Positions 156-20,925 of a stretch of 22,771 nucleotides of DNA are shown here, piece after piece (positions within the stretch are counted from its first letter, which is position 1; every line of letters starts with the position of its first letter). This DNA comes from a virus, in the IMG/VR virus record IMGVR_UViG_3300005467_000038, positions 1 through 22,771 of that record. One strand, written 5' to 3'. The notes below the pieces were generated by a model, which worked only from the letters and a program-made list of their open reading frames with translations, made no database searches and was not told where the DNA came from. A program made the translations under genes and the position numbers.

Positions 156-410
156 TCAGCGTGCCTGAGTTAGTGTCGAGTCTTCCTTCACTCTTGTATG
201 CATTCCCGACACGTTCTCAGTAACGATGTCCTTGATAGCTTGCTGAATCGCCATGTGCTGGTCCTCATCAGAGAGGTTTGGCGATGTGTGTGTCACTCGA
301 GCCAACAACGAAAGAGAGTTGTAGCGATCCCAGTCCCAGGCGAACCACTCATCGTACTGTGAGAAAGGACTGTATGGATTGTCGATAGTCGTAAGCATGT
401 AGTTGTCCAT
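156..410 (-). CDS. Conserved small phage protein next to the RNA polymerase
   Basis: An 84-residue acidic protein without membrane segments. Its start overlaps the stop of the polymerase-like gene by one base (TGATG), so it is probably translationally coupled to it. The N-terminal motif NPYSPFSQYDEWFAWD, followed by an LLARV segment and an SDEDQHMAIQQAIKDIV helix, matches from memory a small conserved protein found beside the same RNA polymerase-like gene in many phages of Gram-positive bacteria, often just ahead of the terminase. Its function is unknown. The coupling suggests it acts with, or is needed in stoichiometry with, the polymerase. Confidence 0.88.
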   Translation of the reverse strand: MDNYMLTTIDNPYSPFSQYDEWFAWDWDRYNSLSLLARVTHTSPNLSDEDQHMAIQQAIKDIVTENVSGMHTRVKEDSTLTQAR

Positions 411-3202
411 CAGTCTCCTTCCTCACCACCAACAGCCTTCTGTGCTGTAGACACAGAGACACCAAGAACGTCAGCAATCTCTGCCCATGAGTAACCCTTT
501 GCATGTAGGCTCCTGGCCTTAGCAGTACTGGCAGGCGTCATCACAGGTTCGTTCTTAGGTGTAGCTAGCTTCTTGACCTGATCTAGATCCGCATAGGTCA
601 GGATCTGAGCTAACTTATGGGCGGTGATAGCACGTGCTTGAATGGCTTTCCATTCGGCATCAGTGATCTCAAACTTATGCTTGTCAGCACCCGTTCTCAT
701 ACGGGCTGCAGACAAGGCCTGAGACTTAACCCTTTTGAGTTCTGCTTTGTTCTCTCTCAACTTGAGAGAGGGATCATCGCGGATCTTCTGCCGAACAGTG
801 GCATTTGCTATGACCTGGGCTTGTCTTTCGAGGGGGGCGTTTCTCAGAGAGAGGTCCAATTTGGCTTGTAGGGAGGACACTTCGTTCTGATACGTCGCCT
901 TCGCAGAGGGCGAGTAAGGATCTGGTTTGATCTTCACTAGTTCTCTACGTGCTTGGTTGGCCAGAGATTTCAGTCGGTTGGAGTGGTCTGCATAGACAGT
1001 CTCGATAACAGTACCCGTCGACAAGGTACGTGCATCGTCAGTCTCAGCAAGCTTTGTCGACTCCGTCTTTTCAACCTTGGTATGTACTTTGCCTTTGGAG
1101 TCAACCCACGTCTTGACCTTACCCGTTTCCTGGAATACCTTCTTGCCCGTCTTGGGATCGATAGCACCAGGACGATCGGGAGACCATTGCTTTCTCTCGT
1201 TGACATCCAGTCTCGATTTAGCTCTCGAGATCAGAGTCGAAGCACCAGCAACACGGGAATCAGAGTGATCTGTCTGATACCGTTTCACAAGCGCGGCAAT
1301 TCCATTAGCCTCGTAAGACTTCTTGTAATTTAGTTTGTGTTTCTCAGCATCGATGACCACCATCGAATGCCGAACGGCACGAGCAAGTTCGTCGTTGTTA
1401 GCACCCCTGATGCTCATGTCCGTGATCAGGTTCGAGATCTTTCCCATCTCGAGGCCCTTCTCATACGGAGTCATGACCTTCATGCCCTCGTAGTAGGGGT
1501 ACTCATCCTTAGGACTGAAATTCTTCAGACCTTCCAACGGAGGCTTAGTTCTGATTTTTCCCAAGTTATTGGGAATCACCAGAACAGTATCACCATCGAA
1601 GTCCGCACCGGACAGTCGCTCAGCAACCTTGCTATTGATCCCGATAGCATCACGAGAATCGCCAAGCAACTTGCGTGCTTCAGGATTCTTGTGACTGACT
1701 ACGAGTTCGGGGATCTCGAAAGGCCCAGCATGAGGAAAGCGAATCAGAACAACTCGCTCACCAGGACGGAAGTTAGGAGCATAGACTTCGTTGTCCTTCA
1801 GACTGTTCACAGGAAGTATGACCTGCGTCTGCTGGCGAGGCAGATGAGCAGCCTTGAGATGCACGGCCGACGAGTCGGCACCATCAGCATAAGCCTCGAG
1901 AAGCTTCTTGCGGACAGATGGGTTGTTCAGACGCAAGATTGCGTCGAGCTCAGACTTCTTCGCGTCATAGGTAATTTGAAGCTGTTCTCGAGCGAGTGGC
2001 GGTCTTTGCTTGGACAGCATCTGCGATGGAAGGTTGCGTGACCAGGTTTCCCACTTGCCTTCTTCGTTAACCTTGTTCATGACCGAAGTAAGCTTAGTGA
2101 TCCGTCCTGTTGCGTCACGCTCGCCAATTTGCCCTGTGGGTCCGATGGTTGCGCCAAACGGATTGTCTTTGTCGATAGGACCCGTAAACTTAGAGGAATC
2201 ACCGGGAGGGTCACCAGGCGCCTTCAGCCTCTTAAGAGGTTTCATGGCGTCGAGCTTGTTGCCCGTGTCGCTCTTATTGGTGTTGAACTGAAGATCCACA
2301 CCGTCAGGGAGATCGTCCTTGTAGACGGCCATACCCTTCAGGTAATGACTACCATCGACCATGATACGGACTTGCGCATATCGTCGACCGCCCAGTGATA
2401 CATCGTTCACGCCAGGGCGAACGTAGATCACGCCATCCGCATCAGCACCACCGTCTTTGTCATACCTGATTCCCACACGCTTGGAGCTAATAGACAGGGG
2501 AGGATGCATGCCAAGTAGCGTTACGCCACCATCTTGAGAATACTCGCTCAGCTGGTCTATCTTGTCGAGGTTACGATGGACATCGATCCAGTCATTACCA
2601 GGTTTGGTCAGAACTTTAAGGATCGTTTTGTTACCCGTACCAAGTTGCTCGATCTGATCCTTATGAACTCGATACCCTTCGTCCTTCAACTGCTGAAGAG
2701 CACTGCGTAGCTTCGTGCTGGTGATGCCGAGTTGATACTCGACACCCGAACCGACATCGATGAATTCCTTCTCGTCTACTGCCTTGCGGAGGGCATTGGT
2801 GACGTTGTCGATAACCTTTGCTTTACGCTCTTGGCTATCCTTGAGTAGATTGCGAACCTGGGACTCGCCGGAGACCTGAAACCCAGCCTCGCGCATGCGT
2901 GCAGCAATGGCCCCGTTTGAAAGTCCCTTATCCTTGAGCTTACGGGCCATGTGGATCTCGTCCTGTTTGCGTTCGTTACGGACGAGAGTACGAATGTCAC
3001 GAAGTTGAGTGGTGGTGACACCATGCATTTTGGCAGCCTCGGTGTCACCGACACCAAACTTCCGCTTGGTTTCCTCAATATCGTCGAGGAGGCTGCGATT
3101 GCGTTGCGATTGCGGATCATCACCAGAGCCCCACGGATAACGTCCAGAGTGTCGAGGAGTTCCATAGTGCGCAAGGTACTCTTCTTCTGGGATAGTGACC
3201 AC
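410..3202 (-). CDS. YonO-like single-chain RNA polymerase (double-psi beta-barrel)
   Basis: A 930-residue protein starting with GTG, overlapping the upstream nuclease stop by one base. Residues 531-538 read SGADFDGD, the Mg-binding DxDGD loop of the beta'-type barrel of multisubunit RNA polymerases. Residues 275-300 (YAQVRIMVDGSHYLKGMAVY) fit the QxR...KG lysine motif of the second barrel in the RdRP/YonO superfamily, and RFPHAGPFEIPEL (488-500) precedes the catalytic loop as in that family. RAVRHSMVVIDAEKH (608-622) resembles the following helix. Residues 1-190 contain helix-turn-helix-like segments, and the last 40 residues form another HTH (SWAEIADVLGVSVSTAQKA). The N-terminus HYGTPRHSGRYPWGSG (12-27) is seen in phage head-associated proteins, so virion packaging is possible. 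This is probably a phage RNA polymerase; template and stage of action are inferred. Confidence 0.82.
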   Translation of the reverse strand: MVTIPEEEYLAHYGTPRHSGRYPWGSGDDPQSQRNRSLLDDIEETKRKFGVGDTEAAKMHGVTTTQLRDIRTLVRNERKQDEIHMARKLKDKGLSNGAIAARMREAGFQVSGESQVRNLLKDSQERKAKVIDNVTNALRKAVDEKEFIDVGSGVEYQLGITSTKLRSALQQLKDEGYRVHKDQIEQLGTGNKTILKVLTKPGNDWIDVHRNLDKIDQLSEYSQDGGVTLLGMHPPLSISSKRVGIRYDKDGGADADGVIYVRPGVNDVSLGGRRYAQVRIMVDGSHYLKGMAVYKDDLPDGVDLQFNTNKSDTGNKLDAMKPLKRLKAPGDPPGDSSKFTGPIDKDNPFGATIGPTGQIGERDATGRITKLTSVMNKVNEEGKWETWSRNLPSQMLSKQRPPLAREQLQITYDAKKSELDAILRLNNPSVRKKLLEAYADGADSSAVHLKAAHLPRQQTQVILPVNSLKDNEVYAPNFRPGERVVLIRFPHAGPFEIPELVVSHKNPEARKLLGDSRDAIGINSKVAERLSGADFDGDTVLVIPNNLGKIRTKPPLEGLKNFSPKDEYPYYEGMKVMTPYEKGLEMGKISNLITDMSIRGANNDELARAVRHSMVVIDAEKHKLNYKKSYEANGIAALVKRYQTDHSDSRVAGASTLISRAKSRLDVNERKQWSPDRPGAIDPKTGKKVFQETGKVKTWVDSKGKVHTKVEKTESTKLAETDDARTLSTGTVIETVYADHSNRLKSLANQARRELVKIKPDPYSPSAKATYQNEVSSLQAKLDLSLRNAPLERQAQVIANATVRQKIRDDPSLKLRENKAELKRVKSQALSAARMRTGADKHKFEITDAEWKAIQARAITAHKLAQILTYADLDQVKKLATPKNEPVMTPASTAKARSLHAKGYSWAEIADVLGVSVSTAQKAVGGEEGD

Positions 3203-4895: not shown

Positions 4896-4924
4896 CCTTA
4901 AGAGAACCTTAAGTTTTCCTTAAG
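4896..4924. repeat. Three CCTTAAG direct repeats with exact 11-bp spacing
   Basis: CCTTAAG occurs at 4896-4902, 4907-4913 and 4918-4924. The core CTTAAG is itself palindromic, and the period is close to one helical turn, so bound proteins would line up on one face of the DNA. The repeats sit between the large dyad and the end of the helicase gene. Iteron-like origin sites or operators are the likely interpretations. Confidence 0.7.
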
Positions 4925-4937
4925 TCCTGTTTTTTTT

Positions 4938-4954
4938 GCGACACGATATCTAAC
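4938..4954 (-). repeat. 17-bp intergenic repeat, copy B
   Basis: On the minus strand this reads GTTAGATATCGTGTCGC, one base different from copy A at 4110-4126. It follows the helicase stop and precedes the CCTTAAG repeats. Two further near-identical words, TATGACCGC and TATGTCCGC, lie in tandem at 4962-4980. Overall 4685-4979 contains no ORF with a ribosome site, only these repeats and A/T tracts. Confidence 0.55.
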
Positions 4955-4979
4955 ACCCCAATATGACCGCTTATGTCCG

Positions 4980-7007
4980 CTATCGTACGATCCAGTCATG
5001 AGCCTCCTCGTCATTTCTGTCAAAAGTGGCAGCAGAATTGACAGGACCGGATTCGAACATTTTCATGTATTTGGCTTCGTTAAACGTCTCCTTCGCCTTC
5101 AAAGATCGCCCAATCGCACGGTCAATCATCGAGTCCGACGTGAAGTCGTAGTACCACAAGTCCTTGAACGGTGTGTTAAGCCGATCGATGCGACCGTAGG
5201 CCTGCTCGGTGATTTTCCAAGAGTAGTTGCGGGAGTACATGATCATGGCATCCGTCTCGATGCACTCCCATGCTTCCGCTCCAGCGATGTACTGGACGAG
5301 GTAGATCCACCGGTCCGTCGTGGGAATCGGCTCGTGCTTGTGGCCGTTCCACTCGGCTATCGAAACCGAAGAAGCATCTGTTGCATGCCATCCCGTGGAC
5401 GTGGTGTCGGGAAGCCAGATCTTCGAGGCTCCATGGTCTACCGCATGCAGGGCATCCTTGCTGCCCCCGTTTCTCGATGACATCCTCTGCTTTGTAGAGG
5501 TGCGGTCCGAATCCGAAGGACATTCCTTGGACAATGCCGTCGGTGATGAGATGGCTCTCGTCGAGGAGATATCCCTTGACGTGCCATCCGGTTTCATCTT
5601 CGGTAACGTCAGTGACGTGGATCTTGTTGAACCATGGTTGTTCTTCGGGAAGGCTGTACTTTCCCGCGGTTTCGACGATGAGCTCGCGATAGGCTGCTTT
5701 AGGGAGGTATCCTTCAACGTCGTCAGACATGACTCACTCCCCTTCTTCGACCTTTCCGACCCAATGATAGTCCCCGGACGCGCGACGGAATATGTTCTTC
5801 CCGTCCCATCCGTAATACTCGATGTCGGGATATTGTGGTTGGACCCGATGGGTATCGAGTCTGAGACTCTTGACGTACAGTTCCGGATGGAGGAACCATC
5901 GTTCGATATTGTTGTCGATGTCGTACTCCCACATCCATGCATTTCCGTTTGATGCAGGGAACCAATCGAACGGTTGGAGTAGTGTGAGAGCTCTGACAAG
6001 CTCCTCAGTATCTCCAACTCGTAATTGAAGTTGTAGAAGACGATCAGCTTCGGATGGTTCTTCCATAGCTCCTTCACCATCTCAAGTCGGCTAGGATCGC
6101 TGTTGACCACCCGCCGCATGACGCTGAACATCTCACCAACGTCACGCAGCGGACGATCCTCGTACACATGCCAGCGCTCCTTCAACACCAAATGGAGTGC
6201 TTCCTTGTCGTAGGGGAGCGGAACCTCGACGTGACGCCTGCGCGTGTGTCGCACGTACGGCATCTCGACAAGGAGTCGGGACCGGAGGCGGACCAGCTTC
6301 CCCACACCGATGTATCGGTCCACCTTGGGGAACTTGCTGAAGTTGTTGTAGACCACATGGTCGCGCTTGAACGCAGTACGGTTCTTATAGAAGCCGTTAG
6401 CAATGAAAACCGGGATGTAGTCCATCCACGTGTCGCCAGGAGTGCCACTGAGGAGTATCCATCTGTTGTATTTAGCAATCCGGAGGAATTTGCGGGTCCA
6501 GTCACCCGAACCCACGAGGCGCTGCTCGTCAAAGATGAAGAAGGCACCTTTGACGTCAGCATACTTAGCGATGTTGTTCCATGAGTCGACGGTTACAACC
6601 CAAGGATAAGATGATCCCTTTTCGAGGCCGCCAACCTCTGTGTCGTCATGTTGTAGTGTTGAGGAGCATACTTCTGAATCAGTGCTTTCGCTCCCGCCAT
6701 GCTGATATAGCGATCCCGATACAGAGTCTCGACTTGAGCGACGAGTAGATTGAGATCCTGGGGTAGCGGTTGGACCTGACTTAGGTCCGATGTCGACGGT
6801 GTAGAACTCTTCTTGCCAGTCAAAGGAGTCTCGCTTCTTTGCCGTAGTAATGACGTAGACATCCTTGGGCGCTTCGTTCTGTAGGTAGTACGCGACAGCG
6901 ACCCGTGACTTACCTGTACCCACACCGCCCCAAAGAATCTTACCGTTCGCAAGCTTCTTCAGGGCGGTGCGTTGATGCTCTCTGAGGTACTCGTTGAGAT
7001 CGATCAT
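4980..7007 (-). CDS. SF2 (DEAH-like) phage DNA helicase with two large inserts
   Basis: A 675-residue open frame whose start overlaps the previous stop (ATGATC). RecA domain 1 has Walker A GGVGTGKS (27-34), DEQR as motif II (160-163) and SGTPGDTWMDY as motif III (187-197). Domain 2 opens with KLIVFYNFNYELEILRSL (320-337) and resumes at AEWNGHKHEPIP (551-562), ending with the arginine-finger motif EQAYGRIDR (601-609). From memory, relatives of about 450 residues join these parts through short loops. Here residues about 75-133 and 338-549 are inserted; the second is very Ser/Thr-rich (42 Ser and 27 Thr in residues 351-550). In both inserts another frame looks like the real protein (see nested entries). 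The role is unwinding or remodelling in phage replication or recombination. Whether the full 675 residues are made is unknown. Confidence 0.88.
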   Translation of the reverse strand: MIDLNEYLREHQRTALKKLANGKILWGGVGTGKSRVAVAYYLQNEAPKDVYVITTAKKRDSFDWQEEFYTVDIGPKSGPTATPGSQSTRRSSRDSVSGSLYQHGGSESTDSEVCSSTLQHDDTEVGGLEKGSSYPWVVTVDSWNNIAKYADVKGAFFIFDEQRLVGSGDWTRKFLRIAKYNRWILLSGTPGDTWMDYIPVFIANGFYKNRTAFKRDHVVYNNFSKFPKVDRYIGVGKLVRLRSRLLVEMPYVRHTRRRHVEVPLPYDKEALHLVLKERWHVYEDRPLRDVGEMFSVMRRVVNSDPSRLEMVKELWKNHPKLIVFYNFNYELEILRSLSELSHYSNRSIGSLHQTEMHGCGSTTSTTISNDGSSIRNCTSRVSDSIPIGSNHNIPTSSITDGTGRTYSVARPGTIIGSERSKKGSESCLTTLKDTSLKQPIASSSSKPRESTAFPKNNHGSTRSTSLTLPKMKPDGTSRDISSTRAISSPTALSKECPSDSDRTSTKQRMSSRNGGSKDALHAVDHGASKIWLPDTTSTGWHATDASSVSIAEWNGHKHEPIPTTDRWIYLVQYIAGAEAWECIETDAMIMYSRNYSWKITEQAYGRIDRLNTPFKDLWYYDFTSDSMIDRAIGRSLKAKETFNEAKYMKMFESGPVNSAATFDRNDEEAHDWIVR
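5176..5730 (-). CDS. Zinc-ribbon protein nested in the helicase gene
   Basis: A 184-residue frame different from the helicase. The start is decisive: AAGGGGAG sits seven bases before the ATG, and the ATG begins three bases after the stop of the other nested gene. Residues 1-125 look like an ordinary folded protein with GYLLDESHLITDGIVQGMSF and a zinc-ribbon-like CPACGRPW (93-100) ... CNRC (116-119), the same motif type as in the array upstream at 7390-10101. The last 58 residues run out of frame through the helicase C-terminal domain and have biased composition, so the C-terminus is an overlapped tail. Function unknown. I think it is a real gene, but expression is inferred from the ribosome site and composition. 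Confidence 0.65.
   Translation of the reverse strand: MSDDVEGYLPKAAYRELIVETAGKYSLPEEQPWFNKIHVTDVTEDETGWHVKGYLLDESHLITDGIVQGMSFGFGPHLYKAEDVIEKRGQQGCPACGRPWSLEDLASRHHVHGMACNRCFFGFDSRVERPQARADSHDGPVDLPRPVHRWSGSMGVHRDGCHDHVLPQLLLENHRAGLRSHRSA
5734..6066 (-). CDS. Unknown protein nested in the helicase gene
   Basis: A 110-residue frame starting at an ATG that follows AAGGAGCT, a good Shine-Dalgarno core with short spacing, inside the helicase codons for VKELW. The first 24 residues are forced by the conserved helicase frame. From FDWFPASNGNAWMWEYDIDN onwards the sequence is rich in Trp, Tyr and Asp and looks like a real soluble protein, with LHPELYVKSLRLDTHR, QYPDIEYYGWDGKNIF and DYHWVGKVEEGE. 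Its stop is three bases from the start of the nested zinc-ribbon gene, so the two form a coupled pair. No family is recognised. The contrast with the Ser/Thr-rich helicase frame over the same bases is the main evidence that this frame is coding. Confidence 0.6.
   Translation of the reverse strand: MEEPSEADRLLQLQLRVGDTEELVRALTLLQPFDWFPASNGNAWMWEYDIDNNIERWFLHPELYVKSLRLDTHRVQPQYPDIEYYGWDGKNIFRRASGDYHWVGKVEEGE
6593..6862 (-). CDS. Candidate helical microprotein nested in the first helicase insert
   Basis: An 89-residue frame from an ATG at 6862; a TTG at 6823 is an alternative start, and neither has a strong ribosome site. The informative part is PQDLNLLVAQVETLYRDRYI followed by SMAGAKALIQKYAPQHYN. 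This resembles the core of the two small genes just upstream, which carry LYFSDQITLYEAYKM and AYLRGGITLIQAYQM. It covers exactly the region where the helicase frame turns Ser/Thr-rich. It may be a third, diverged paralog embedded in the helicase, or the remains of one. Translation is uncertain. Confidence 0.4.
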   Translation of the reverse strand: MSTSLLRQRSETPLTGKKSSTPSTSDLSQVQPLPQDLNLLVAQVETLYRDRYISMAGAKALIQKYAPQHYNMTTQRLAASKRDHLILGL

Positions 7008-7201
7008 CCGCCTGGCTCGAGCACCTCCTTGTAGAAATGATTACGAGTTTCCTCGTCAGGGTCTGCCTCAGGTTCTTGACCCTGGGCGTACATCTTCATT
7101 TTGTACGCCTCATACAAGGTAATCTGATCGGAGAAATACAGCCTACGTATCTCCTCGTCGATCGTTCCCCAACCGTCTTCTTTATTTACGATTTCGGCCA
7201 T
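7004..7201 (-). CDS. Small helical protein, paralog of its neighbour
   Basis: 65 residues, mostly charged and predicted helical by eye. IRRLYFSDQITLYEAYKMKM followed by PEADPDEETRNHF aligns with the neighbour's AYLRGGITLIQAYQMH and PENPDPDAEILNLF, so the two are tandem duplicates. The stop overlaps the helicase start (ATGA) and the start overlaps the upstream gene by 16 bases. The short segment ITLxxAYxM recalls SHOCT-like oligomerisation helices, but I do not claim that family. It could be a partner of the helicase, judging only by coupling. Confidence 0.8.
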   Translation of the reverse strand: MAEIVNKEDGWGTIDEEIRRLYFSDQITLYEAYKMKMYAQGQEPEADPDEETRNHFYKEVLEPGG

Positions 7202-7389: not shown

Positions 7390-7743
7390 TCACACCTGTT
7401 CGATATGTGCCGACGAATTCGCGTCGGGGTTCATTCTGTACGTGAAATGCACTTCGCCGTTACTCAAGACGTGGGTGATGACGAAGTCTCCACACGCACA
7501 CGACTTCGCCAGCTCGTAATCGAGGTTCTCGAGCTGACCGCCACAGACCGGACAATGTGTCAAGCAATCGAGTGCTGCGTGGATACCCATCTTGAGCAAT
7601 GGTCCTCCATGTTCTTCTTCATTGACAATATGCGAGGGCATCTCAACCGCCTGTTGCTTTGCTTTAAGGAGTTGTTCCATATCTTCCAACAATCTCTGAT
7701 AGAAGTACGATCGACCGAGCCCCGCGGTCTTGACGTCAGTCAC
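7390..7743 (-). CDS. Zinc-ribbon-like array protein 11 (last of the run)
   Basis: 117 residues from a GTG that overlaps the upstream gene. This is the longest free-standing member apart from the DUF3310 protein. An N-terminal helical part (YFYQRLLEDMEQLLKAKQQA) precedes a cysteine pair CPVCGGQL near residues 64-71 and a second pair CACGDFVITHV, the same spacing logic as the other array members. The region after the second pair, EVHFTYRMNPDANS, is unique. Probably one structural zinc; partner unknown. Confidence 0.82.
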   Translation of the reverse strand: MTDVKTAGLGRSYFYQRLLEDMEQLLKAKQQAVEMPSHIVNEEEHGGPLLKMGIHAALDCLTHCPVCGGQLENLDYELAKSCACGDFVITHVLSNGEVHFTYRMNPDANSSAHIEQV

Positions 7744-7936
7744 TGTGTGGTATCCAAACGGCTAGGTAACGCAATCCCAACAGTTCAAGAGAGAATCGAC
7801 CATGGTCAACACATGTGAGATCGCTCCGCCCATCAGTTTCCAACTCACCGGCACACACAGGGCAATACTCTAGAGATGCTCTTAACTTCTCGCATTTCTC
7901 GCGAAATTTTCTATCGATATCGTGCATGATAGACAC
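7736..7936 (-). CDS. Zinc-ribbon-like array protein 10
   Basis: 66 residues from the GTG at 7936; an ATG at 7927 three codons later is equally plausible, and neither has a strong ribosome site. A basic helical N-terminus (DIDRKFREKCEKLRASL) leads into CPVCAGEL and then CVDHGRFSLELLGL. The His-Gly after the second cysteine pair position (CxxHG) is the array signature and could supply the fourth zinc ligand. Confidence 0.8.
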   Translation of the reverse strand: MSIMHDIDRKFREKCEKLRASLEYCPVCAGELETDGRSDLTCVDHGRFSLELLGLRYLAVWIPHSD

Positions 7937-7952
7937 ATCCGAATCAGATGGA

Positions 7953-8162
7953 TCAGAACGGTTTGATCGTGGGCCACGTCACGAAGATAGCTTCGATCCC
8001 ACCATCCTCACGAAAATTCGACAGCTTGAAGTATCCACAACGTTTGGGGCATCGCTTCTCTGCAGGACGATGAGGCAGCGGAGCATCGAGTACTGACTCG
8101 CATATTGGACAAGCGACGAACACCGACAGAATGCTATCCAGTAGGGTCGGCTTCTCACCCAT
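7953..8162 (-). CDS. Zinc-ribbon-like array protein 9
   Basis: 69 residues. I place the start at the ATG at 8162 because AGGTGG lies seven bases upstream; the frame stays open to a TTG at 8201 inside the previous gene. CPICESVL near residue 18 and CPKRCGYFKLSNF form the cysteine motif; here the usual CxxHG is replaced by CPKRCGYF, giving a four-cysteine site. C-terminal EDGGIEAIFVTW is strand-like. Function unknown. Confidence 0.78.
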   Translation of the reverse strand: MGEKPTLLDSILSVFVACPICESVLDAPLPHRPAEKRCPKRCGYFKLSNFREDGGIEAIFVTWPTIKPF

Positions 8163-8178
8163 AAATAAACCACCTACC

Positions 8179-8364
8179 TCATTTCGATCCATTGGGATCA
8201 AAAATCACGACAAGGTCTCCGCTGATATTTAGTCCTGTCTGAAGGACGTTTGGATGATCAACGCACCAGACTCGTATGGTAGATTCGAACGAAACGATCC
8301 TTTCAAGACTACTACCGCATTGTGGACAGAATTGTATAAGGTCGAATGCGCTTTTCTTACTCAC
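8179..8364 (-). CDS. Zinc-ribbon-like array protein 8
   Basis: 61 residues from a GTG with AGGAAG about ten bases upstream. CPQCGSSL (13-20) is followed by an insert and CVDHPNVLQTGLN. The glycine of the CxxHG signature is a proline here. Short N-terminus of the type FDLIQFCPQCG is shared in spacing with the neighbour at 8582 (GNLLKFCPECG). Confidence 0.8.
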   Translation of the reverse strand: MSKKSAFDLIQFCPQCGSSLERIVSFESTIRVWCVDHPNVLQTGLNISGDLVVIFDPNGSK

Positions 8365-8378
8365 TCCATCTCGTCTTC

Positions 8379-8585
8379 CTAGGGTTCCAGGTTGAACTCG
8401 AGAAAAATGAAGTTGTAGCTAGTCTCATGTAAGGTAACCACACTACCGTGCGTGAGACACATCAGCGGCTTCTGACGATCTGTGGTGTCCATCAGTGGTC
8501 GTCCACAGCGAGGACAATGGCGGAAGTTATCGCAGATTTCTGCATGTAGTTGGTCGAGGGGCATCGTGATTTTCCAGCCGTTCAT
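8379..8585 (-). CDS. Zinc-ribbon-like array protein 7
   Basis: 68 residues. The ATG at 8585 overlaps the upstream stop as ATGA and is preferred over an in-frame ATG at 8618 that would overlap by 36 bases without a ribosome site. CPRCGRPL is followed by CLTHGSVVTLHE, a canonical CxxC...CxxHG pattern, and a strand-rich end (YNFIFLEFNLEP). Probably binds one zinc ion; no function assigned. Confidence 0.82.
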   Translation of the reverse strand: MNGWKITMPLDQLHAEICDNFRHCPRCGRPLMDTTDRQKPLMCLTHGSVVTLHETSYNFIFLEFNLEP

Positions 8586-8794
8586 CGCAACAAACGATCC
8601 GTATTGAACGACCTCCATTGAATGACAGGCGTATCGTAGACGACCCCATTCAGGGATCCATGGATGACGAAATCACCATGACCGAAACAGCTCATTCGCC
8701 CCTCTGCACAGGGATGTGGGACCAGTTCTCGCCCACATTCCGGACAGAATTTCAACAGATTGCCAACCCTAGTATTTTCCACATCCAAGACCAT
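8582..8794 (-). CDS. Zinc-ribbon-like array protein 6
   Basis: 70 residues from an ATG with GGAG nine bases upstream. GNLLKFCPECGREL leads to CFGHGDFVIHGSLNG: the clearest instance of the array signature C-x2-CG-x2-L ... C-x2-HG-x-F. An additional Cys-His pair (HPCAEG) lies between them. Variable C-terminus VIQWRSFNTDRLLR. Confidence 0.85.
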   Translation of the reverse strand: MVLDVENTRVGNLLKFCPECGRELVPHPCAEGRMSCFGHGDFVIHGSLNGVVYDTPVIQWRSFNTDRLLR

Positions 8795-8800
8795 ATGATT

Positions 8801-9022
8801 TTACTCCAGAGTCATGAAACCCGTCACGCCGCATTCACTACATCGCGGATATGGGTGGTTGGCGGACATACGTTCATGCTTACATCGAGGATTCCTCGTA
8901 GAGGTGTAGCACATCTCTCCCAGGTGTCCATGTCGAATGCAGCGATCACCTTCACGAATGACAGGGCTTCCTGAGTCGACGCAATAACGTTCCGACGTGA
9001 GTTTCCCCCATTTGATTCTCAC
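8801..9022 (-). CDS. Cys-rich array protein 5 (divergent)
   Basis: 73 residues from a GTG with AAAGGGGAT as the ribosome site. The first pair is broken (YCVDSGSPV), then CIRHGHLGEMC, RCKHERM and a C-terminal CSECG follow. The order of motifs is therefore permuted relative to the neighbours, with the CPxCG-like element at the end, which suggests either a rearranged copy or two half motifs. Metal binding is likely from the seven cysteines; function unknown. Confidence 0.78.
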   Translation of the reverse strand: MRIKWGKLTSERYCVDSGSPVIREGDRCIRHGHLGEMCYTSTRNPRCKHERMSANHPYPRCSECGVTGFMTLE

Positions 9023-9034
9023 GGCATCCCCTTT

Positions 9035-9298
9035 TTAATTCTTACGAAAGTCTTTGCCCCACAAACGAACTGCTTGATCCTGAGTAATGAGACCGCGATC
9101 AACGAGTGCCGTCACCTCGTATCCAAAATCCCCAGCCAGAACCTTCCGATGCAACTCACTGCAGTGATCTTCACCGATGAAACACATCGGCTTCTGCTCG
9201 TCCGTCTTCCCACAAACTCCACAAGGATGCTTACCATCCCGATAGGGGGTCTGCAAAGCCTCAGTCAGCCTCGTCAAAGACGCTCCCAAGTTAGTCAC
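9035..9298 (-). CDS. Cys-rich array protein 4
   Basis: 87 residues from a GTG within GTGACTAA, overlapping the upstream stop by eight bases. CGVCGKTDEQKPMC and GEDHCSELH form a compact Cys/His cluster. The second half, ALVDRGLITQDQAVRLWGKDF, is an amphipathic helix pair whose RGLITQDQAVRLWG resembles the ITLxxAYxM core of the 7004-7386 paralogs. This may link the two families. Confidence 0.8.
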   Translation of the reverse strand: MTNLGASLTRLTEALQTPYRDGKHPCGVCGKTDEQKPMCFIGEDHCSELHRKVLAGDFGYEVTALVDRGLITQDQAVRLWGKDFRKN

Positions 9299-9482
9299 TA
9301 TCTTCGTTCCTCATCTCTTGTAATTCTTGTTCCGTGTAAGGTTTAGGGTGATACCATCGTTCAGGATGATTACAGTGCGAGCAACACATCAAATTCGATG
9401 CTGAGCCAGACAAACAGATTCCATATCCAGCGCCGCACGCTGTACAAGGATACTTCAATCGCCATGCTGGGGGTTTCGTCAT
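9291..9482 (-). CDS. Cys-rich array protein 3
   Basis: 63 residues, ATGA overlap with the upstream gene. CTACGAGYGICL is followed by CCSHCNHPERWYHP, giving two CxxC-type pairs and extra His. The C-terminal YTEQELQEMRNEDSD is a charged helix. It departs from the CxxHG form and is closer to a classic four-cysteine ribbon. Confidence 0.8.
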   Translation of the reverse strand: MTKPPAWRLKYPCTACGAGYGICLSGSASNLMCCSHCNHPERWYHPKPYTEQELQEMRNEDSD

Positions 9483-16944: not shown

Positions 16945-19900
16945 CTAACTCAAGAACTCGGCAACAGAAGAGAAGCCACTACCCACGAGAAACTGATCGA
17001 TGTTGGCTCGAGCCTCCTCGACGAGGTGATCAAAGAAGCCGTAATCGATCGCGTCTCCGGGCAGATCCATGGCAATCTTCGAATCAACCCACAGATGACC
17101 CTTGGTTCCTTGGACGGCATACGCTTTACCGTCCTTGACACGCCAGAGCTGTCCCCCGCCGTAGCCCTCCAGGACAGGCGTAAAGCGACCCGTCTTGCCG
17201 ATGAAGATGAGCTTGTCGAGTGCTTCGCTGTAGACCTTGGCTTGGTCTTCTTCGGACGATCCACCCTTCTTCATCGCTTTGATCTGGTACAGGGCATCGT
17301 CGACATAACCCATGGATGGATCACGATCCCCCGTTTCGCGAGTGTAATCGTGATTACCGAAGTCCAGATACAGCGCTCCCTGCTGAACGTGCTTCGTCAC
17401 GCAGAGATCGAAGAAGTTGATGTCATCGTCATAGCCGAACAGCTTCTTGAAGACGTACGGATTGACGTCAGGATGGAACTGGCTGCCGGTCGCCGTCCAG
17501 CAGTTGTCGACGCAGTTGTCCTTCTTCGCCACGTAAACGGCGTCATTGACCAAGGCCAACTTAGAATACTGATCCTTCTCTGGATCGTATTCCATGCTGT
17601 AACCGTACTTGGCAGCAAAGTTGACGACTGCCTCGATGATCTCCGGCGTGGCGTTGGGGATCTTCACCGAGTCGGTCTTGATGTGCGCAACCGTGAAGCC
17701 CTGGTCCTGAATATAGTTCTTCAGATCCACCATGAACAGAGCGCCACGCTTGGCAACGATATTGTCCACGTTGCGCAGATCTCGGAACGGATTGTCGAAT
17801 TTCGCCGAGGTTAGACCATAGACGATATTCATCGCGATCTTCAGTCCATCGCGTAGATCCTTAGTTGCCTTCTTCGCCGCCTCTGGATCCCTCTCACGCA
17901 GACGCTCAATGTCTTCGACGTAGGGTCGAAGTTTCCCGTCGAAGGCACCCTTGACCGAATCGTAGTTACCATGCTTGAGCGCAAGCTGCGCCTCCACGAG
18001 AGCCATGTAGCGCGGCGTGTACTCACCGAAAAGATTGAGCTGACCAATCGATGTAGGATGCATCGAAGCGACGTCAAGCAGCGCGACATCTCGGTAAATA
18101 CCTGGCTCAGCGTAGACATAGCCGCCTTCACCGACGTCAACACCTCGGTAAGTGCTGACCATGGGATTTCCTTTGACGCCGTCCTTGGGTCCGTAGACAT
18201 ATCCAGGGAAATCCTTCGAAAGATCGGTGTAGACGAAACTCCTCTGCGGGTTCTTGTCGCGACCGAAGATGATCCGGGCAGTGTGATTGGCGGTGGTGTG
18301 GTTAGGTGTCAAACCACTGAGATCCGACAGGATGAGACGAGCTTTCCAGTCACCCTGCAGGTGTTTGTGGGTCTTCTCGGTAGAAACCACGTCGTTGGCG
18401 CAATACGCCGCCACATCCATGATTCGATCCTCGGGAACCGGCTTGTCCCAAGGAATATCCATCTCCCGATGCTCGAGCCCCAGCTCGATCTGCCACTTCT
18501 TCAACCCCTGCTTCTTGGTGCTGTAGTCGAAGATGTCGGTGTACGAGAGGTTGTACGCCTCACCGAACTTGGCGCCGACGGAGTTGTTGATGATCTTCTG
18601 TGACAAAGCGTAGAGCTGCGGGATGCTGAAGCCCATGGCCGCAGCCCACATCATGTGGTTGTCATAGCTGCGGTTGTTGAAGCCCACGAGCTTGTACTTG
18701 AAGAGAGCTTCCACCTCGTGCGGCTTCGGGTTGATCATCGTCACCACGCTGTCGACCGAGGGCTCGTCTTCCTCGAACTTCCAACAGATGACAAACAGGT
18801 TGGGGTAGCACTCGATATCGTAGAAGACCAGCCGCGGCTCCAGCGGCGTTGGCTCATCCGGAGGAAGTTCGTCTTCCTCAGACTTCCATCGCATGGAATT
18901 GACGATCTTCAGACATTCGAGAGCCCTGTTACTGCTCCTACTGGCAAACGTGGTGATCTTGGGGCGAAGATCGGTCACGTCGTAGCGGAGACCATCGTTG
19001 TAGGCATCATCAAGGATTTTCTTGATGAAGTCCACCGAGGGCTTAGTTCCGGGATGGATCTCTTTCCGCAGGTTGCGAGCGATCAGATCCCGAAGGGCCT
19101 TCTCGCTCTTCATAGTCCCAGGTTCGATCACTCGCGTATTCTCCTTGAGCGGCAACCCGCTATTTATGGTGGCGATAGGTACATTATTACATCGCGTAAG
19201 TCGACGACGTAACGAAGAGTGTCCAGGGAACCGTTTGATCTCAATCCCTGGAGCGTAAAGCGAATCGAGCCGCTCTGGATCTCCGTCGTAATAGAAGTGG
19301 AGGTGTACTCCGTCGCCACTTCTGCTAAGTTCAGCATAGGTGGCTGGCCATTTTGCAGCTTCTCGTAGATTTCGTTCAAGGGATTTCTTTCCATTGTCGT
19401 CCTTCAAATCGAAATCAGCGACGATATGGTTCGGTGCTAGGCCTCCGACGAAATGCTCTCGCGACGTGTCTATCTCAGCAAGACGCGTCGTCACATCCTC
19501 CCACTTCTGTTTCGGCGCTCCTCGCGCTGATGCGTATTGTGCGGGATGCTCGGCAAGTTCGAGATCCAACAAGGAAATGGTCTCGTCCAACCGCAAGGTG
19601 AACGTGCTGAGATCATCATCCACCGGCGTCTTGAATGGCTCTGCCTTGAAGCCGGAGTACCAACTCCGAACGATAGTCCCGTCATCCATCGTGTGACGAA
19701 TATGGAACTCGTCGAAATAATTGCCGAGCTCTGACTTGAAGGCGTACCGTGTCATCTTGGTATCGACGTTTGCTTTTTCGCAATACGTCTTGAACAACAT
19801 CCAAGCTTGTTCGACACTGGTGCCGTTCTGCTCCGCGAAGATGTTGTAGTTTGCTTCGATGAAGTTGAAGAAGGCGTTCGTCTTGAACATCATCTCCAAC

Positions 19901-20925
19901 GGCTGGTAATTGCTGTAGTAGTTCTCGCCCATCTCCTTGAAAACCTGGAGACAGTGATGAGCGATAGCGCCAAGCTCGAACGTGATGCGGTCCATCAGTG
20001 CATGATAACGCCCAGGCGGAAGCTTGACCCCGGAAGGATGTACGTCAATCAAACGACGAATAAGACCCGATTGCGCGTCAGTGATCTTGACCGGTTTGTT
20101 GGTCCCCATGAGCAGGAACGCATTGACGCGGGCGTCGTAGGAGGGCTTGAACTTCTCGTTCATCCGCATGATCTCGTGCGAGACAATCGAGTTGAGAGTG
20201 GTGTTATTCTCCACCCGCGACAAGTCGCCATCATGCTGGATGGCTACGAGAGGATTCCCCGAAAATGCCGCGGCGGCAAATTGATTCCCATTCGATGCCA
20301 AGGCAGCGGCGTCAAAGGTCGTCACATAGCCGTCGAACAGCATCAGAATGATATTGAGGATCGTCCCCTTGCCTGCTCCTGGAGGCCCATACAGTACAAG
20401 GAATTTCTGAATTTTCTTGGACGCCCCAGCAACAATCGCCCCGATCGCCCATTCGATCTTGGCTCGCTCGTCTGGCTTGTAGAGAGTCCCGACAAGTTCA
20501 TCCCAAGCGCTGTGATCCCCCTCGGCAAGATCATAGGGCAGCCTCTTGCTTACGTAATCTTTCTTGCCGACCTTGGTTCCCTGGAAGGTCAGTGTTTCGT
20601 CAAGCTGATGTGCGTTGTCGCCGATTTCCCGCATGAACTTCCGAAAGGTACTTTGACCGTTCGAGCTGAAGCTCTTCATCAGCTTGACTTCAACAACATC
20701 TTTGTTTTCTTTGCGGTACGAATTTAGCTTGTCGTCCACGATACGTTGTACGTCATATTCGTCCGTGGACCACAGACCTTTTTGTTCGTCCCAGACGGCA
20801 TAGAAGGATTTCGCTCGGACCATCAAGTCTTCGGACCGACCAACGACCCAGTCGGGATATGCGATCAGTCCGCCGCCTTGTTTTTCTGTACGCTCTTTAA
20901 CTCTGATCTGAATGAAATCGACCAT
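16945..20925 (-). CDS. Fused SF3 helicase / AEP primase-like / family B DNA polymerase
   Basis: 1326 residues. Helicase: Walker A GPPGAGKGT (180-188), acidic motif LVAIQHDGD (226-234), sensor FLLMGTNKPVK (270-280) and arginine pair at 290-291. Primase-like: VADFDLKD (502-509), SGDGVHLHF (536-544), then GIEIKRF and RRRLTRCN (560-580), the pattern of archaeo-eukaryotic primases. Exonuclease: DIE (703-705), GFNNRSYD (748-755), YCAND (841-845). Polymerase B: motif A DVASMHPTSI (951-960), motif B KIAMNIVYG (1029-1037), motif C KTDS (1083-1086). All catalytic residues seem present. The order helicase-primase-polymerase in one chain would give a nearly complete replisome. The C-terminal polymerase half is a widespread phage family from memory. 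Activities are inferred, not tested. ssDNA-binding protein downstream is a likely partner. Confidence 0.92.
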   Translation of the reverse strand: MVDFIQIRVKERTEKQGGGLIAYPDWVVGRSEDLMVRAKSFYAVWDEQKGLWSTDEYDVQRIVDDKLNSYRKENKDVVEVKLMKSFSSNGQSTFRKFMREIGDNAHQLDETLTFQGTKVGKKDYVSKRLPYDLAEGDHSAWDELVGTLYKPDERAKIEWAIGAIVAGASKKIQKFLVLYGPPGAGKGTILNIILMLFDGYVTTFDAAALASNGNQFAAAAFSGNPLVAIQHDGDLSRVENNTTLNSIVSHEIMRMNEKFKPSYDARVNAFLLMGTNKPVKITDAQSGLIRRLIDVHPSGVKLPPGRYHALMDRITFELGAIAHHCLQVFKEMGENYYSNYQPLEMMFKTNAFFNFIEANYNIFAEQNGTSVEQAWMLFKTYCEKANVDTKMTRYAFKSELGNYFDEFHIRHTMDDGTIVRSWYSGFKAEPFKTPVDDDLSTFTLRLDETISLLDLELAEHPAQYASARGAPKQKWEDVTTRLAEIDTSREHFVGGLAPNHIVADFDLKDDNGKKSLERNLREAAKWPATYAELSRSGDGVHLHFYYDGDPERLDSLYAPGIEIKRFPGHSSLRRRLTRCNNVPIATINSGLPLKENTRVIEPGTMKSEKALRDLIARNLRKEIHPGTKPSVDFIKKILDDAYNDGLRYDVTDLRPKITTFASRSSNRALECLKIVNSMRWKSEEDELPPDEPTPLEPRLVFYDIECYPNLFVICWKFEEDEPSVDSVVTMINPKPHEVEALFKYKLVGFNNRSYDNHMMWAAAMGFSIPQLYALSQKIINNSVGAKFGEAYNLSYTDIFDYSTKKQGLKKWQIELGLEHREMDIPWDKPVPEDRIMDVAAYCANDVVSTEKTHKHLQGDWKARLILSDLSGLTPNHTTANHTARIIFGRDKNPQRSFVYTDLSKDFPGYVYGPKDGVKGNPMVSTYRGVDVGEGGYVYAEPGIYRDVALLDVASMHPTSIGQLNLFGEYTPRYMALVEAQLALKHGNYDSVKGAFDGKLRPYVEDIERLRERDPEAAKKATKDLRDGLKIAMNIVYGLTSAKFDNPFRDLRNVDNIVAKRGALFMVDLKNYIQDQGFTVAHIKTDSVKIPNATPEIIEAVVNFAAKYGYSMEYDPEKDQYSKLALVNDAVYVAKKDNCVDNCWTATGSQFHPDVNPYVFKKLFGYDDDINFFDLCVTKHVQQGALYLDFGNHDYTRETGDRDPSMGYVDDALYQIKAMKKGGSSEEDQAKVYSEALDKLIFIGKTGRFTPVLEGYGGGQLWRVKDGKAYAVQGTKGHLWVDSKIAMDLPGDAIDYGFFDHLVEEARANIDQFLVGSGFSSVAEFLS

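Follow-up and report, generated by a model that had tools for sequence, protein, structure and literature searches.

Small genes apparently nested in shifted frames inside two loops of a phage helicase gene

How can a single stretch of DNA be read as a helicase gene and, over part of the same bases, appear to encode other proteins in other frames? The question is raised by a viral DNA stretch of 22,771 nucleotides (the window, by which the whole stretch is meant), in which a helicase ORF on the minus strand carries two segments that do not resemble a helicase. A sequence-only reading of this locus had proposed that whole genes were placed inside loops of the helicase and tolerated there as disordered linkers. 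The host gene and its two loops are listed below.

4980-7007, minus strand: Snf2-like SF2 phage helicase, an open ORF of 675 aa and the host gene of both inserts
6597-6830, minus strand: site 1 loop, 234 nt against 75 nt in most relatives, open in the helicase frame
5355-6014, minus strand: site 2 loop, 660 nt against 39 nt in most relatives, open in the helicase frame

The ORF at 4980-7007 matched the DNA helicase family phrog_62 of PHROGs with an E of 1e-47, and it was placed among the Snf2-type SF2 motors by profile and predicted fold. The motifs invariant in 58 relatives (Walker A, DE, motif III and GRxDR) were all kept; by family profile and conserved motifs, the protein belongs to the Snf2-like SF2 phage helicases (phrog_62). 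When the window helicase was modelled with AlphaFold (59 sequences), the two lobes mostly exceeded a pLDDT of 90, and residues 81-129 and most of 356-542 fell below 50 without secondary structure. The helicase is predicted, on this model, to be confidently folded with both inserts disordered. Two further large genes were noted on the minus strand of the window: the 930-aa protein at 410-3202, which matched phrog_4291 (labelled RNA-dependent RNA polymerase) over its whole length and is probably a single-subunit phage RNA polymerase, and the 1,326-aa protein at 16945-20925, which had primase and DNA polymerase family matches.

Related loci were collected by five protein queries to IMG/VR, with the relatives returned, and by one query to GTDB genomes. 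Three pieces of the helicase were aligned independently, so that their frames were free to differ, and the sample comprised 288 distinct helicases; the p-values throughout disregard relatedness among the phages. The alignment to relatives confirmed the two insert stretches recognised from the window alone at residues about 75-133 and 338-549, with the slightly different borders given above, and put the extra length of the window helicase at ∼53 codons (site 1) and ∼207 codons (site 2). Across the 288 helicases, 19 distinct loop lengths were found at site 1 (45-690 nt) and 50 at site 2 (33-1,641 nt). All of these lengths were multiples of three, and not one helicase-frame stop was found inside the loops at either site, so the two properties first claimed for the window inserts hold throughout the sample. 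They also go beyond chance, as judged by a recoding test in which the nested proteins were kept fixed and their synonymous codons were replaced at random according to codon usage in the phage's own helicase: in 31 inserts, about 152 stops in the helicase frame were expected, and 0 were observed. For the window inserts, the chance of a stop-free helicase frame after recoding was 0.003 at site 2 and 0.046 at site 1. An expectation based on how densely stops occur in ordinary neighbouring ORFs was 181 plus 38 helicase-frame stops, again with 0 observed.

For introns and inteins, a frame-preserving insert in a replication gene is a typical setting, and to that extent the location suits a reading in which an intron, an intein or an assembly error has split two genes. 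An intron, however, requires neither a length in multiples of three nor an open frame, and the same or related inserts were found again in separate metagenome records. Assembly error, which the sequence-only reading had kept as an alternative, is very unlikely because the recurrence extends across many independent metagenome records, and we give the whole of this reading next to no credence. Searches of the window rejected three specific candidates. For an intein, the 675-aa frame gave no Pfam match, to an intein or endonuclease or otherwise, and the insert is predicted to be disordered; for a self-splicing intron, no Rfam match was obtained over 4900-7100; and for a palindromic mobile element of the Rickettsia palindromic element (RPE) type, no palindrome of at least 14 nt was found in the window inserts.

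The three other-frame ORFs proposed over these inserts were all present, in the +1, -1 and -1 frames relative to the helicase, and are listed here with two free-standing ORFs next to the helicase gene.

6593-6862, minus strand: nested microprotein ORF, +1 frame, site 1; start uncertain (ATG 6862 in helicase sequence)
5734-6066, minus strand: nested Trp/Tyr-rich ORF, -1 frame, site 2; probable start ATG 6066
5176-5730, minus strand: nested zinc-ribbon ORF (CPACGR...CNRC), -1 frame; 5355-5730 within the insert
7004-7201, minus strand: free-standing microprotein directly upstream of the helicase, of a family found nested at site 1 in relative L003
7186-7386, minus strand: free-standing tandem paralogue of 7004-7201, resembling nested site 1 ORFs of relatives L001 and L003

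At site 1, the +1 frame gave the best codon score over 6593-6862, and the ORF was similar to a nested ORF of L001 (pairwise E 6e-4). The Trp/Tyr-rich ORF at site 2 resembled, by eye, the nested ORF at 6266-6454 of L002, and no homologue of it was found in cultured phages. For the zinc-ribbon ORF, the -1 frame scored best, the ribosome site AAGGGGAGTGAGTC-ATG stands ahead of its start at 5730, and the ATG, with its AAGGGGAG ribosome site, lies two codons past the preceding nested stop. The frame and ribosome site proposed for this ORF were thus borne out, but not nesting over its full length: because its last ∼60 codons cover ordinary helicase sequence, only 5355-5730 lies within the insert. 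No homologue was found in viral contigs, cultured phages gave chance-level matches only, and a weak PHROG match was to head maturation proteases (E 0.005). The two free-standing microproteins matched each other with a pairwise E of 5e-8, and that at 7004-7201 was 35% identical to the nested L003 ORF over 47 aa (pairwise E 3e-5). The motif LYxxGxITLxEAxxM is nested at site 1 of L003 and free-standing twice in the window upstream of the helicase. Farther upstream, at 7390-9300 on the minus strand, lies a series of small ORFs, of which several contain zinc-ribbon CPxC motifs; they may be an accessory pool feeding the nested sites.

A coding signal and homologues were also found among the relatives. 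Per-frame codon statistics, suggested as a check by the sequence-only reading, favoured the nested frame in most inserts (-1 at site 2 and +1 at site 1), and nested proteins matched one another between phages in that frame. Free-standing counterparts were found as well: a nested segment of L103 was 60% identical to a free-standing 63-aa gene in the neighbouring DNA of L139, and nested proteins of L139 and L074 were 50-54% identical to a free gene of L165, with shorter or weaker matches between nested and free-standing proteins involving L174, L004, L137, L101 and L133. Seven phages carry nested members of a small zinc-ribbon family, in every case in the -1 frame, and three others have free-standing ones; Cys, His, Cys and Cys are invariant in this family, and its predicted fold reached a pLDDT of 83. 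According to substitutions counted by nested codon position in five pairs, the second position changes least and the third most, which points to the nested frame, although the data were too noisy for dN/dS; identity was higher in the nested than in the helicase frame in four of these five noisy pairs and about equal for L139/L165. De novo overprinting was rejected as a candidate, given that several nested proteins have free-standing homologues in relatives (none was found for the zinc-ribbon ORF of the window). No nested protein tested was given a name by Pfam or PHROGs, which recognised only an in-frame DUF4326; no homologue of three nested proteins of relatives was found in cultured phages, and the iterated profile of a short DWQ module recovered nothing beyond its three nested seeds, and thus no copy outside a helicase gene. 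A clear nested gene was lacking, or an in-frame domain present, in the inserts of L079 and L089 and at site 1 of L163.

These data bear on another account, in which the inserts are ordinary in-frame disordered linkers that grew longer on their own, with composition alone giving rise to the other-frame ORFs. In its favour, Ser/Thr-rich linkers of low complexity are common, and any gene here is Ser/Thr-rich in its +1 frame. The other-frame proteins are nevertheless conserved and have zinc ligands and ribosome sites, the other frame scores as the coding frame, and the free-standing homologues already contradict the account, which we regard as barely tenable. As to definition, a second ORF lies inside the first on the same strand in another frame, and the evidence in the helicase and nested frames satisfies the further condition of selection on both; by these two sequence criteria the ORFs qualify as nested genes, the making of both products in the cell being inferred.

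Several nested ORFs can occupy one insert. That of L133 contains six -1 frame ORFs in 1,641 nt, whose internal ATGs stand directly after the previous stop or one codon later, behind purine-rich sites (AAGGAG, GGAGG). The frame was unchanged at twenty junctions between nested ORFs, and the last nested ORF of each insert often extends over helicase sequence. Three consecutive nested genes at 6845-7246 of L133 have near-identical beginnings (MSEQP, MSDQP and MSETP), a hint that nested start sites may have undergone duplication or recombination.

Within the insert, a start codon for the first nested gene is often lacking, so this gene must start in helicase sequence. In the clade of the window, an ATG lies 52 nt before site 2 in all four members and in none of the 113 insertless relatives; in the window it is position 6066, within conserved helicase sequence, and its assignment as the start of 5734-6066 is supported. 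Outside this clade, 27 of 28 insert-bearing helicases have a -1 frame that runs open from an ATG or GTG located 160 nt upstream of site 2, also in conserved helicase sequence, compared with 27 of the 113 insertless helicases (p 6e-13). This start also has a better Shine-Dalgarno match in the insert-bearing helicases (p 9e-7), and relatedness inflates both values. The first nested gene at site 2 appears to start inside conserved helicase sequence, translation from these sites being inferred.

The same observations can be turned towards programmed frameshifting, another alternative of the sequence-only reading, in which ribosomes would leave the helicase frame by a -1 shift, or leave and re-enter it, to reach an alternative C-terminal domain without any independent gene. 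Such a mechanism would fit the site 2 inserts, whose nested frame is invariably -1 and already open in the helicase sequence upstream, and the several first nested ORFs that lack a start codon inside the insert. It is not needed, because start codons enriched with the inserts, in nearly all of the insert-bearing helicases outside the window's clade, stand at the head of the nested frame at site 2. Nor would a single shift suffice for the many inserts with at least two nested ORFs, where a stop is followed immediately by an ATG and often accompanied by a ribosome site. Visual inspection of the surroundings of site 2 in the window and L001 revealed no slippery heptamer, and the helicase frame itself stays open and hydrophilic. 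Frameshifting is thus considered improbable and was rejected.

The preferred reading, in which independent genes are nested within a helicase frame that is still translated, was further addressed by the composition of that frame. Where a nested gene is in the -1 frame, its third codon positions fall on the middle bases of the helicase codons, and A and G after a second-position T were avoided in nested genes (1.4% and 9.9%, against 10.3% and 28%). When the helicase frame at site 2 was compared with stop-free recodings, it was more hydrophilic, with a mean hydropathy z of -2.55 in 27 inserts and -3.6 in the window, whereas 371 ordinary ORFs of the same loci gave a mean z of -0.24 (p 2e-9). The Ser/Thr richness pointed out in the window inserts is in part typical of the +1 frame of any gene here, but the linkers exceed this background: Ser was 22.6 versus 14.6%, Thr 13.0 versus 9.2%, Glu 6.5 versus 2.4% and Arg 5.4 versus 12.0% in linkers and in the +1 frame of ordinary ORFs, respectively. 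Asp was likewise raised in the site 2 linkers, and Val, Phe and Trp were lowered. As far as codon choice in the nested genes can tell, the helicase frame at site 2 is tuned as well as open.

No hydropathy tuning was found at site 1, where z was scattered around zero and the cases are few and partly related. Site 1 cannot be tuned silently, because the middle base of the helicase codon is there the first codon position of the nested gene. The pattern of tuning at site 2 and z near zero at site 1 is what would be expected if the helicase frame is translated through a disordered linker. Taken as properties of the DNA rather than of its products, the lengths in multiples of three, the open frame, the codon tuning, the homology of nested proteins and the start-codon enrichment are established. 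Neither the linker tuning nor the same-frame arrays of nested genes had been seen by the sequence-only reading.

On a FastTree phylogeny of 150 helicase cores, the presence of an insert at site 2 changes about 20 times, gains and losses together. Finding the same insert as a conserved in-frame domain in relatives would have spoken against nesting; an in-frame domain was seen, but only as a different cargo in other phages. L079 carries DUF4326 in frame at 1089-1364 in site 2 (PF14216, 1e-28, Pfam) and lies very close on the tree to the insertless L057 and L064; site 2 therefore also takes ordinary domains. By eye, DUF4326 is also in frame in L089 and in the middle of the site 2 insert of L002. 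Site 2 measured at most 90 nt in the 76 helicases from GTDB genomes, and inserts were absent from cultured phages in the 60 of 316 matching records viewed, all of which gave a one-piece match of ordinary length. Large inserts were seen only in uncultured phages of this sample, among dozens of uncultured relatives.

Taken together, these results make it very probable that accessory genes were captured recurrently into the helicase loops and kept under dual-frame selection, the reverse of overprinting, with the expression of both products inferred. The original proposal of whole genes in loops, tolerated as disordered linkers, is thereby supported by comparative evidence and predicted disorder. 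Under this explanation, the two loops would repeatedly receive small accessory genes, which are captured out of frame with the helicase (-1 at site 2, +1 at site 1). The first gene at site 2 would most likely start in conserved helicase sequence, and later ones beside the preceding nested stop. Ribosomes in the helicase frame would pass the insert without a stop and produce a hydrophilic, Ser/Thr/Glu-rich disordered linker, the lobes still folding. Selection would act on the nested proteins and also on the helicase frame, which must stay in multiples of three, stop-free and, at site 2, hydrophilic, mostly via third codon positions of the nested genes. Translation of both products, a working long helicase and the arrival of the genes by recombination are inferred. 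Weighing against the explanation are the inserts with an in-frame domain or without a clear nested gene, the first nested genes that lack a start in the insert, the untuned and few site 1 cases and the window's zinc-ribbon ORF, for which no homologue was found.

A question raised by this arrangement is why genes should nest at all. Because nesting saves no DNA here, its benefit can only be guessed as shared expression or protection from deletion. A more specific version, which we favour only slightly over its negation, is that the loops form a dedicated intragenic accessory-gene locus with exchanged cassettes (up to six, in one frame), in which codons are selected for a neutral hydrophilic linker and nesting would protect the cargo from deletion and couple its expression to that of the helicase. 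Because gene callers are biased against overlapped genes (PMC6139136), annotation may lack whole families of phage proteins. The inserts also provide a replicated natural data set on the joint optimisation of two frames, which is useful for synthetic overlapping genes.

No prior description of genes nested in helicase loops was found in the open-access literature. The broad class is that of nested genes, and the helicase inserts are evidently an unusual overlapping form that arose by gene capture. In the spanins, Rz1 is embedded in Rz, a phage gene inside a gene (PMC6139136), and gene overlaps are known in phiX174 (PMC8227390); as in the helicase, a complete same-strand gene lies inside another in a shifted frame, and such genes are often missed by callers. 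These are, however, single fixed pairs or compact overlaps, whereas the helicase inserts are recurrent, exchangeable and lengthen the host gene. Inteins and self-splicing introns likewise place extra coding DNA in phage replication genes, but the helicase insert has no recognised splicing element or endonuclease and is read as retained in the protein. The Rickettsia palindromic elements are in-frame inserts in protein genes (PMC10969869) and share the tolerance of frame-preserving DNA inside an unrelated coding sequence; they are repeats of ∼150 bp translated in the host frame, while the helicase cargo consists of diverse other-frame genes. Viral overprinting is similar in that two frames are jointly constrained and one is disordered, and overprinting is the usual explanation of overlapping genes. 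In its classical form, the nested protein is the new one (PMC8227390) and has no homologues, whereas in the helicase system the nested proteins have free-standing homologues and the host linker is new and disordered, so that the process would be the reverse of overprinting, with old genes entering a host gene apparently many times.
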